64,000 bases of DNA from Thiosulfatihalobacter marinus (GTDB lineage: Bacteria; Pseudomonadota; Alphaproteobacteria; Rhodobacterales; Rhodobacteraceae): positions 1 through 64,000 of the forward strand of contig NZ_JAECRZ010000008.1 of assembly GCF_016019955.1 (NCBI RefSeq). Reading direction: 5' to 3'. This document shows positions 42,512-45,079 of this stretch, piece after piece. Made by a program: the position numbers and the translations under genes. The notes below the pieces were generated by a model. The model did no database searches and had not been told where the DNA came from. It saw only the letters and a list, made by a program, of their open reading frames with translations. The stretch's first letter is position 1. Each line of letters opens with the position of its first letter.

Positions 42512-42916
42512 TCACCGCTCTCTCGGCTCGGGAAAAACCACCGGCCCACCGTGTTTTTCCCATGTTGAAAACCCCTCTTTCAGATGCGCCGCTTCAAACC
42601 CCATATCCTGCAAAAGCGCCACCGAAAGCGCCGAACGCCACCCCGAGGCGCAATGAAAGACAAACTTGCGATCTTCCGCGAAAACTTCTTTGAAATAAGG
42701 GCTTTCCGGGTCCACCCAGAATTCCAGCATCCCGCGCGGGCAATGGAAACTGCCCGGAATGTACCCCAGCCTCTGGCGTTCGCGCACGTCGCGCAAATCC
42801 ACGATCTGCACCTCCGGGTCATCCATCATCGCGATCAGATCCGGCGTTTCGATCTCCTCGATCCGGGCGCGCGCGGTGGCCACCATCTCTTTCACCGATG
42901 TCTTCAGTTTCGCCAT
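42512..42916 (-). CDS. Rhodanese-domain protein
   Basis: A 134-residue single rhodanese domain. The active-site loop is CASGWR (FHCASGWRSALSVALL, Cys near residue 93), preceded by IVDLRDVRERQRLGYIPGSFHCPRG. Such enzymes transfer sulfane sulfur, for example from thiosulfate, through a cysteine persulfide. The start at 42916 (MAKLKTS) is chosen because the longer frame upstream is antisense to the region before the divergent flavoenzyme gene. Confidence 0.85.
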   Translation of the reverse strand: MAKLKTSVKEMVATARARIEEIETPDLIAMMDDPEVQIVDLRDVRERQRLGYIPGSFHCPRGMLEFWVDPESPYFKEVFAEDRKFVFHCASGWRSALSVALLQDMGFEAAHLKEGFSTWEKHGGPVVFPEPRER

Positions 42917-43034
42917 TGGCCCCACTCCTCGAAATCTGGCAACCTGCCTCATTTCCCACTTTCCCAGCTTGCCGCCAATCCCTACTGTCCTCAAGTGCCC
43001 CGCGCCCACCCCGTACCCAAAACGTTTCACCCTG

Positions 43035-44312
43035 ATGACAGACCCCGATACATCGCCGATCTCCCACTGGGATCACTCCGGCGCCGAGCCCGATCACTCC
43101 GCCCCGCTTGACGGGGACACCGCCTGCGATCTCTGCATTGTCGGGGGCGGCTATACCGGGCTGTCCACCGCCCTGCACGGCGCCGCGCGCGGGCTGGACT
43201 GCCACGTGATCGAGGCCAAGGGCATCGGCCATGGCGGGTCGGGCCGCAATGTCGGGCTGGTCAATGCGGGCCTGTGGCTGCCGCCGCGCGAGGTGCGCAA
43301 CAAGCTGGGCGACACGCTTGGCACATCGCTCGTGACAACCCTGGGCGAGATGCCCTCTTACGTATTCTCGCTGATCGAAACGCACCAGATCCGCTGCGAC
43401 CCCCGGCGCAACGGCACCATTCACGCCGCCCATTCGCCGCGCGGCCTTGCCGATCTCACCCGGCGCGCCAGCCAGTGGCAGGCCCTGGGCGCTCCGGTGG
43501 ACCTGCTCACGCCCGCACAGACCGCCGAAATGACCGGCACCCGGCGGTTTCATGGCGGCCTGCTGGACCGGCGCGCCGGAACCATAAACCCCATGGGATA
43601 CGCGCGCGGCCTTGCCCGGGCCGCGCGTGGCGCCGGGGCGCGCATATCCACCCACACCGACGCGCAGCGCCTGCGCCGCGAGAACGGCCATTGGCTGGTG
43701 CATACCGATCGCGGCACGGTCCGCGCGCGCAACGTGGTCCTGGCCACCAACGCCTATTCCGGCACGCTTTGGCCCGGCCTGGAAAAGCTCTTTACCACCA
43801 TCCACTTCTTTCAGGTCGCCACCGAACCGCTTGGCGCGCGGGCCGATGCGATCCTGAAGGGCGGGCAGGGTCTGTGGGACACCGCGCCGATCATGTTCTC
43901 GCTGCGCCGCGACGGCGACGGGCGGCTGATCATCGGGTCGATGGGCGCGGTTCATGGCCCCGATGGCGCCCTGTCGCGCCGCTGGGCCCGCAAGCAACTG
44001 GCCCGCCTGTTCCCCGATCTCGGGCCGGTCGATCCGGGCACACCCTGGCACGGCCGGATCGCCATGACGCCCGATCACGTTTTCCGCATGCATCGGCTGG
44101 AAGACGGGCTATTTGCACCGATCGGCTATAACGGGCGCGGCATCACAACGGGCACATTGTTCGGCAAGGCGCTGGCCGATCTGCTCTCGGGCGCCGATCC
44201 CGACAGCCTGCCAATCCCGGTGAGCCCGCCCAGGCCCATCCGCGCCCGACGGCTGCAAACCGGATTCTATCACGCCGCCTTTGCCGCCAATCAACTCTGG
44301 AAAAGCCTTTAG
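43035..44312 (+). CDS. DAO-family FAD-dependent oxidoreductase
   Basis: A 425-residue flavoenzyme of the D-amino acid oxidase/GlpO family. The FAD motif is CIVGGGYTGLSTALHGAARG near residue 34, the GSGRNVGLVNAGLW segment near 70 is typical of the PuuB/OrdL group (gamma-glutamylputrescine oxidase-like), and GYNGRGITTGTLFG near 375 closes the FAD site. It oxidises a secondary amine or amino acid derivative; the substrate is unknown. Its stop codon is the TAG whose T-A is the target duplication of the MITE that follows. Confidence 0.82.
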   Translation: MTDPDTSPISHWDHSGAEPDHSAPLDGDTACDLCIVGGGYTGLSTALHGAARGLDCHVIEAKGIGHGGSGRNVGLVNAGLWLPPREVRNKLGDTLGTSLVTTLGEMPSYVFSLIETHQIRCDPRRNGTIHAAHSPRGLADLTRRASQWQALGAPVDLLTPAQTAEMTGTRRFHGGLLDRRAGTINPMGYARGLARAARGAGARISTHTDAQRLRRENGHWLVHTDRGTVRARNVVLATNAYSGTLWPGLEKLFTTIHFFQVATEPLGARADAILKGGQGLWDTAPIMFSLRRDGDGRLIIGSMGAVHGPDGALSRRWARKQLARLFPDLGPVDPGTPWHGRIAMTPDHVFRMHRLEDGLFAPIGYNGRGITTGTLFGKALADLLSGADPDSLPIPVSPPRPIRARRLQTGFYHAAFAANQLWKSL

Positions 44313-44575
44313 GGTCAGGACCCATTAATCCTGCACCACTGGTTTAACAGATTTGCTGTCTGACTACGTACAATGCCGCAGGAATAGTGGTTCTATTTCA
44401 AGGCATTGAAAGGACGTCAGGCGGCAAATCCGTCAAATCCGCAGGACGCCAAATCCACTTCATCCCAGCGGCTTGGCACGCTTGGAAATAGAGCCACTAT
44501 GTCCGGCGCGCGTCAAACCCCCGATATTTCGCGGATTTGGCGCCAGTGGTGCAGGATTAATGGGTCCTGACCCTA
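44310..44575. mobile_element. MITE with perfect 33-bp terminal inverted repeats
   Basis: The ends (TAGGGTCAGGACCCATTAAT... at 44310-44342 and its exact complement at 44543-44575) match over 33 bp. Inside lies a second inverted pair (ATAGTGGTTCTATTTCAAG at 44384-44402 against 44481-44500, one mismatch and one gap). There is no ORF. The outer TA on each side looks like a target duplication, giving an element of 262 bp. It sits in the overlapping stop codons of two convergent genes. A TA duplication suggests mobilisation by an IS630/Tc1 or IS5 (IS427)-like transposase, not present here. Confidence 0.85.
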
Positions 44576-45079
44576 GGCACATGCCTTTGCGCACCAGGCC
44601 CGCAACGCCTCGGCATCGGCGGGCAACGGCGTCGCCATCTCGCCGGCGAAATCGACAAATTCGGGCAGGATGCCGCGCCCAACACCCACCAGCACCGGCA
44701 CACCCTGGTCCAGCGCCGCCGCGATCACATCGCGAAACCCGCGCCCGGCGGCTTCCTCGGGGCCAAACTTGTTAAGAATGAACAGCTCGGCACCGTGCAA
44801 TCCCCGCCCCTCGACCAAAGCCACGGAACGCGCAATTGCCTCCGGGTCCAGCCGACAGGCCCCCGACCCGGCGCCCAGCTCCTGAGTGATCGCGATAACC
44901 GGGCCGTCGGGCAACACCCGAACCTTCATATCGCACCCATTTTCGAACCGGCTGGCATGGCCCTGATCCCTGACGATCCCGGCCACCTGCCGCCCGCCAG
45001 CGCGCAACGCGTCGGCAAGGCTGGACAGCACCGCGTCGGTCTCGCCCTTTTTCGTCGAACTGACATACCCGATCTTCAT
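44573..45079 (-). CDS. DUF2478 protein
   Basis: A 168-residue protein of the DUF2478 type, starting MKIGYVSSTKKGETDAVLSSLADAL and carrying the conserved LNKFGPEEAAGRGFRDVI segment near residue 107. The family is described as P-loop NTPase-like (THEP1-related), but the Gly-rich loop is not canonical here, so NTP binding is uncertain. Its stop TAG is completed by the MITE end; the empty site would have read TAA. It is the last gene on the minus-strand ubiTUV transcript, 12 bp after ubiV, so a role in anaerobic ubiquinone synthesis or a related Fe-S/Mo process is possible. Confidence 0.65.
   Translation of the reverse strand: MKIGYVSSTKKGETDAVLSSLADALRAGGRQVAGIVRDQGHASRFENGCDMKVRVLPDGPVIAITQELGAGSGACRLDPEAIARSVALVEGRGLHGAELFILNKFGPEEAAGRGFRDVIAAALDQGVPVLVGVGRGILPEFVDFAGEMATPLPADAEALRAWCAKACA

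Follow-up and report, generated by a model that had tools for sequence, protein, structure and literature searches.

We wanted to understand how a palindromic element could come to lie exactly between two convergent genes of Thiosulfatihalobacter marinus without apparent damage to either of them, and what its folded interior may be for. The window is the whole stretch of 64,000 nucleotides that was analysed (contig NZ_JAECRZ010000008.1, positions 1 to 64,000), and its relevant features are collected in Table 1. A preliminary description had placed here a miniature inverted-repeat transposable element (MITE), inserted in stop codons shared by the two genes. We found the 33-bp inverted ends to be perfect and to carry TA at both outer ends, as described there. 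The present flanks read cctt-TA on the left and TA-ggca on the right. The reconstructed empty site reads ctt-TAG-gc on the plus strand and gcc-TAA-ag on the minus strand, which agrees with insertion into two shared stops. Both flanking genes now end with TAG contributed by the element's own ends; relative to the reconstructed site the DUF2478 stop was shifted from TAA to TAG, and its protein was unchanged. The DUF2478 protein covers profile positions 2-159 of 159. The flavoenzyme covers positions 1-353 of 353 of the DAO profile, and it matches its best NCBIfam model, L-pipecolate oxidase, at positions 7-413 of 425 (469 bits, below the cut-off of 600). With profile matches near full length both proteins look complete, and the earlier view that neither had been altered can be kept. 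Two ORFs of at least 60 aa begin inside the element and exit through the neighbour genes. A flavoenzyme gene adjoined the DUF2478 gene in none of 29 DUF2478 loci of relatives (best matches only, approximately 1.5 kb of flank); the proposed search for strains lacking the element at this site therefore gave no orthologous empty site, and we infer the pre-insertion state from the present flanks.

Table 1. Position and strand of the element, its parts and its neighbours in the window.
Feature	Position	Strand	Remarks
Whole element	44310..44575	.	262 bp plus duplicated TA at either side (266 bp in all)
Left terminal inverted repeat	44310..44342	+	starts with TAG, the stop codon of the plus-strand gene
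Arm 1	44343..44437	+ (motif strand)	long stem, internal loops, apical hairpin
Apical hairpin of arm 1	44371..44408	+	stem, GCA/AA internal loop, GGAA...TTTC stem, conserved G.U at second pair
Mini-hairpin TCC-GCA-GGA	44438..44446	.	between the arms, centre of two-fold symmetry
Arm 2	44447..44542	- (motif strand)	inverted counterpart of arm 1
Right terminal inverted repeat	44543..44575	-	starts with TAG on the minus strand, the DUF2478 stop codon
FAD-dependent oxidoreductase (DAO; pipecolate-oxidase-like)	42759..44312	+	ORF limits; true start possibly further downstream
DUF2478 gene	44573..45079	-	
ORF	44473..44775	+	starts inside element, leaves through neighbour gene
ORF	44143..44325	-	starts inside element, leaves through neighbour gene

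Copies were searched for in the same genome, a 4.16 Mb draft of 66 contigs. There were 21 full copies with identities of 95-100%, located at different, unrelated sites. Besides these there were shorter pieces: one copy reduced to 156 bp by an internal deletion, a pair of 59-bp copies, a remnant of 30 bp, one end standing alone and, at a contig edge, a fragment. When at most 3 mismatches were allowed, a 20-base end had 51 matches in the genome, all of them explained by these copies and fragments. TA was found on both sides of 20 of the 21 full copies, the right TA having been lost in copy L020. The target was YTAR at all 24 tabulated sites (CTAG at 15; the right base of L020 is uncertain), and at 22 of 24 sites of copies in other genomes, where one locus, L032, was read one base off. 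The two 59-bp copies (L084 1361-1419 on contig C11 and L085 1501-1559 on contig C60) are palindromes of the ends only, with an identical junction; they sit in stop codons at two sites, adjoining a MarR-domain ORF and a DHDPS-family gene. An IlvD/Edd dehydratase gene takes its stop codon from the 30-bp remnant (L082 4466-4495; C11:28965-28994). Contig C13 (L083 1-76) starts within a copy, and further copies or an autonomous partner may hide in such assembly gaps.

The element is short, has terminal inverted repeats, has no coding capacity of its own and is dispersed in copies with target duplication. Its identity as a MITE is, on these sequence features, well supported, as is its mobility; in this respect it is a further member of an already known kind. 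The near identity of the copies agrees with recent amplification, which the preliminary description had suspected from the perfect ends. That no other copy exists, or that the sequence is a fixed structural terminator between the two genes, as its position between convergent genes and its strong fold might suggest, has a negligible chance of being true and is refuted by 21 dispersed copies at unrelated sites with YTAR targets, and a terminator scan scarcely exceeded chance (one terminator-like site, 0.7 expected).

The position of the window element raised the question of how often the copies lie in stop codons. The same criterion was applied to all sites: a gene-like frame of 300 bases has to reach the target TA, and the TA has to open the next codon. 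We scored 25 insertions in the genome (21 full and 4 small). A gene-like frame ended in phase at the target TA in 20 of them, on both sides at 4. Among the full copies 16 of 21 passed, the exceptions being L012, L014, L016, L018 and L020. Control YTAR sites in the same DNA passed in 6 cases out of 65 (Fisher p = 1.5e-10), and controls restricted to CTAG in 4 out of 17 (p = 4e-4); any TA passed at 590 of 1626 sites, mostly as in-frame TA within genes. On 29 gene sides the frame was open over 300 nt or more, and the empty codon was TAA or TAG at each, as an in-phase YTAR must give. A Pfam match was found at 22 of these 29 sides, the two of the window included. These sides belong to 19 of the 25 sites, L018 being one of the 19, and at 3 sites both sides had a match. 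Some domains reach the very end of the gene: a zinc dehydrogenase domain extends to residue 335 of 338, a histidine-kinase ATPase to 497 of 500, and that of a transthyretin/HIU-hydrolase-family protein, which ends ...YRGS at the target TA, to 123 of 124.

A cruder test based on the frame only gave 17 of 24 insertions against 5 of 19 controls in the own genome (p = 0.004). In other genomes it gave 12 of 24 against 26 of 166 (p = 4e-4) for elements of the 266-bp type, 8 of 10 against 12 of 139 (p = 1e-6) for distant elements, three of these ten coming from one Chelatococcus and two from one bin, and 4 of 12 against 24 of 220 (p = 0.04) for full insertion sequences. Five annotated plasmid copies (out of 66 records with a match) were inspected as well; none of the five lay exactly in an annotated stop, the nearest annotated gene end being 5-58 bp away in four and none being close in the fifth. 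Landing in stop codons is the rule in the own genome, and it is biased beyond what the target preference alone would give. The bias may arise by a landing preference or by later selection, and both fit the present data. The element enters YTAR sites, in its own genome mostly TAA or TAG stops of genes pointing inward. A gene entered in this manner keeps its protein and gains a new TAG stop, because both ends of the element begin with TAG.

The preliminary description had proposed a search of related genomes for the 33-bp end and for a full-length insertion sequence with the same ends, and both were found. A match of some length to the element was present in 8 of 60 genomes of relatives, the own included; within the family the strict two-ended pattern occurred in 11 of 394 genomes, and within the class in 2 of 385, again with the own included. 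A species-level genome collection contained at least 117 stretches with the end pattern, mostly titled alphaproteobacteria, and among the matches listed 14 of 117 loci, in other genomes, carried two-ended elements of 830-868 bp. Most of these have readable IS5-type ORFs. In one such element, L196, the two ORFs matched DUF4096 and DDE_Tnp_1 in Pfam and scored 104.5 and 158.3 bits with NF033580, for which the cut-off is 110. Judged by sequence, the ends of the MITE are those of IS5-family insertion sequences of approximately 840 bp. The name IS427-like group rests on the TA target, ends GGGTCAGGAC..., the size of approximately 840 bp, split transposase ORFs and 2-bp repeats; the element shares the target and the ends, and its relatives of that size have the split ORFs. 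The size class of the relatives and the 2-bp repeats match the IS427-group elements of Paracoccus, which have 832-865 bp, mostly 2-bp repeats and two overlapping ORFs (PMC3281130).

Unlike the IS427-like insertion sequences, the element has no transposase, has conserved arms, and has most of its own-genome copies in stop codons. Its interior showed no relation to theirs by BLAST and inspection, in an unsystematic comparison. The family profile of the transposase matched 29 of the 60 genomes searched; neither this profile nor an insertion sequence protein used as query (134 aa, L161) found a matching transposase in the 66-contig draft of the own genome. The ends, the size of the relatives and the TA duplication point to movement in trans by an IS427-like transposase of the IS5 family, which would be foreign or lost.

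A second inverted repeat had been noticed inside the element, and it proved to be part of a larger conserved fold with two arms. The 266 bases folded alone as RNA gave -149 kcal/mol (z = -14.3), and as DNA the fold was likewise strong (z = -12.5); with the ends removed, z was -5.5 on the plus strand and -7.5 on the minus strand. For the structure alignment we used 22 diverse copies, leaving out near-duplicates (L006, L018, L193, L270, L272), L197, the remaining 18 copies of the own genome, the longer elements L125 and L199, partial matches of genome G027 and all distant elements. The two longer versions, both from Sulfitobacter records (L199 372-823, 452 bp; L125 5976-6282, 307 bp), seem to have gained additional GC-rich hairpins within the arms. 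RNAalifold returned a single structure of 98 pairs, consisting of end stem, arm 1, mini-hairpin and arm 2. Compensatory changes on both sides were seen in 68 of the 98 pairs. Paired cells made up 93.8%, compared with 79.0% in shuffled alignments, and double-change cells numbered 301, compared with 83 after shuffling and 48-62 after sliding by 1-3 columns. None of 500 shuffles attained any of five measures; the aligned sequences are related, so these figures are not probabilities.

The core of an arm consists of a stem, a GCA / AA internal loop, a GGAA...UUUC stem and a lower loop with (G/A)ACG. Loop letters and lengths are conserved in the arms besides the pairing. The second apical pair was G.U in 27 of 32 arms, in an alignment that was fitted to the model and into which L324, L322 and L314 had entered via a pattern fixing these letters. 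It is well supported by the aligned sequences that the interior is a two-fold symmetric pair of arms around a mini-hairpin, maintained by compensatory changes.

We then built a covariance model from arm 1 and the mini-hairpin and searched 51 loci, 13 of which had a two-ended candidate. The model matched 12 of the 13 two-ended elements (L203 was missed) and also two one-ended loci, L140 and L166, the best E-value of each matched element lying between 9e-16 and 3e-5. Among the matches are records of Magnetovibrio, Chelatococcus, Aquisalinus and Erythrobacter. In BLAST, the best alignments between the window element and ten of the matched elements extend over the ends only. Both arms were matched, inverted, in L201, L140 and L125; in L201 and L140 the matches meet at the mini-hairpin, and these elements are therefore two-fold symmetric. 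In a lossy search of 289 genomes of the class, with at most 13 candidates scored in each, 6 had an arm match (own included), four of them outside the family.

One 1.5-Mb genome of the class (G253) gave seven arm matches (L276, L280, L283, L285, L287, L289 and L291). A TAGAGC end is present on one or both sides in six of them, and L291 carries a different repeat; L276 adjoins a tRNA gene. Two contigs of a viral catalogue (L324 12089-12192 and L330 2818-2921) carry one and the same element, with an arm between repeats of the AGGGGGTG or AGGGGGTGTTTTGAAAC type. The apical pattern had 19 matches in viral contigs, and the arm model supports five of them (L324, L330, L313, L322 and L314). No arm was matched in eight viral contigs that carry the end pattern, and annotated phages gave no match to arm 1. 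The arm occurs with several different terminal repeats and is therefore a module independent of any one repeat. The exact apical pattern was present in three of 386 genomes of the class: the own, G253 and G217, the last of which has no arm fold and was taken as chance. In the own genome the pattern had 21 matches, equal to the number of copies carrying it by our own count, so that these matches gave no arm outside a copy. A known Rfam family as the identity of the arm was rejected: among 14 sources no match covering an arm reached its gathering score, while the tRNA beside L276 reached its own.

Is the arm an RNA or a DNA structure? Over all pairs of the whole element there was no strand bias (GU 52, AC 55), and a single-strand RNA across the whole element was given up in favour of a reading per arm. 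Read on the plus strand, with pairs common to both strands, arm 1 had 27 GU and 14 AC, and arm 2 had 14 GU and 30 AC (p = 0.06 and 0.02, the cells being dependent on each other); the end stem, with 9 G.U and 11 A.C, had no bias of the kind in the arms. On weak to moderate statistics, each arm seems to prefer G.U on the strand that leads from its own end into the element. This fits an RNA transcribed inward from either flank. Each arm, we propose, functions as RNA. Transcription from either flanking gene into the element would pass first TAG, then the end repeat, and after it one arm in working orientation. The element would thus be a ready-made structured 3' UTR for one or both neighbours, which would make its insertion tolerable, possibly by protection of the mRNA end, by processing or by binding of a factor.

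That the arms are instead a DNA hairpin or cruciform required for excision, replication or transposition is, in our opinion, unlikely. It would agree with the structure being kept in mobile copies across genera, with the cancelling of G.U and A.C over the whole element and with the strong DNA fold. It is opposed by the conserved G.U pair and the per-arm strand bias, and by arms with different terminal repeats (TAGAGC... in G253, AGGGGGTG... in L324), which presumably belong to different transposases. The two arm-less 59-bp copies also speak against it: they share one junction at two sites, so that the arms may be dispensable for movement.

Still less probable is the absence of any function, with the MITE as filler between ends, template switching correcting quasi-palindromes and mutation bias keeping the pairing. 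The 21 young copies had three two-sided changes, as expected from such correction, all of them in the terminal repeats; against these stand 52 changes at paired sites that affect one side only, and the arms contain no double change. One-sided changes thus dominate, and the pairing of the arms is not kept by instant self-correction, which speaks against it as the sole cause. The loop letters and lengths conserved beyond pairing, and the presence of the structure in elements that BLAST aligned at the ends only, also disagree with the absence of function.

We regard as very improbable that the arms are REP/BIME palindromes moved by RAYT (Y1) transposases and enclosed by IS5-type ends. CGTC-tagged REPs are, like the element, alphaproteobacterial hairpins that form head-to-head dimers mostly downstream of genes (PMC3733652). 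The two arms face each other in the same manner, and the opposite strand has CGT(C/T) before the arm stem. CGTC REPs are 20-40 bp long and have one stem of 8-9 bp, almost always starting with A and T, and they differ from the element in having a single stem and no terminal repeats of its type (PMC3733652). Of the GTAG/CGTC tag that marks REPs moved by RAYT, the arm has tag-like CGTC/T letters on one strand; its stem does not start with A and T, and it contains internal loops. Y1_Tnp (PF01797) was found in none of the 18 element-bearing genomes searched (own included) and in one of 20 others; in one of these others, G025, a stretch of 33 bases matches the element. In control genomes the search was positive in 5 of 14. 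Within the scope of these tests RAYT mobilisation was rejected on the missing Y1 transposase and the stem features.

Taken together, we give roughly even prospects to the reading in which a MITE moved by an IS427-like transposase equips genes entering from either side with a TAG stop and a structured 3' UTR. Mobility and structure are its well-supported parts, and the RNA function is an inference. The preservation of the arm shape across distant bacteria where the sequence differs suggests a still unnamed structured RNA. The wider proposal is more tentative, and we hold it somewhat less probable than its opposite: the arm would be an RNA family absent from Rfam 15, carried by more than one MITE family with different repeats and occurring in several alphaproteobacterial families as well as in viral-catalogued contigs. 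Placed head-to-head in a MITE that seeks stop codons, it would provide any gene entering from either side with a stop codon and a functional 3' end, as a mobile bidirectional 3'-UTR module.

YPAL elements of enterobacteria lie close to stop codons. YPAL and ERIC resemble the element as MITEs of 127-168 bp with TA duplication and stable stem-loops, and differ from it in their hosts (PMC2759123). MITEPye1 of Paracoccus yeei is likewise an alphaproteobacterial MITE with a predicted RNA fold, whereas it has 159 bp, IS1182-type ends and 4-bp repeats (PMC11578231). Among open PMC papers, searched by full-text word matches only, no title was recognised as describing the present element.

The usual view of bacterial MITEs is that of decayed insertion sequences. 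In the present element the non-coding interior is conserved in shape and common to elements with different ends, and landing is biased to stop codons. The end-independent conserved arm and the stop-codon bias set the element apart from known MITEs as a variant. If the arms act as DNA, movement relies on a folded centre. If they act as RNA, mobile elements spread ready-made 3' UTRs; should the arm prove to be an RNA, it would constitute a new RNA family and could be proposed to Rfam.
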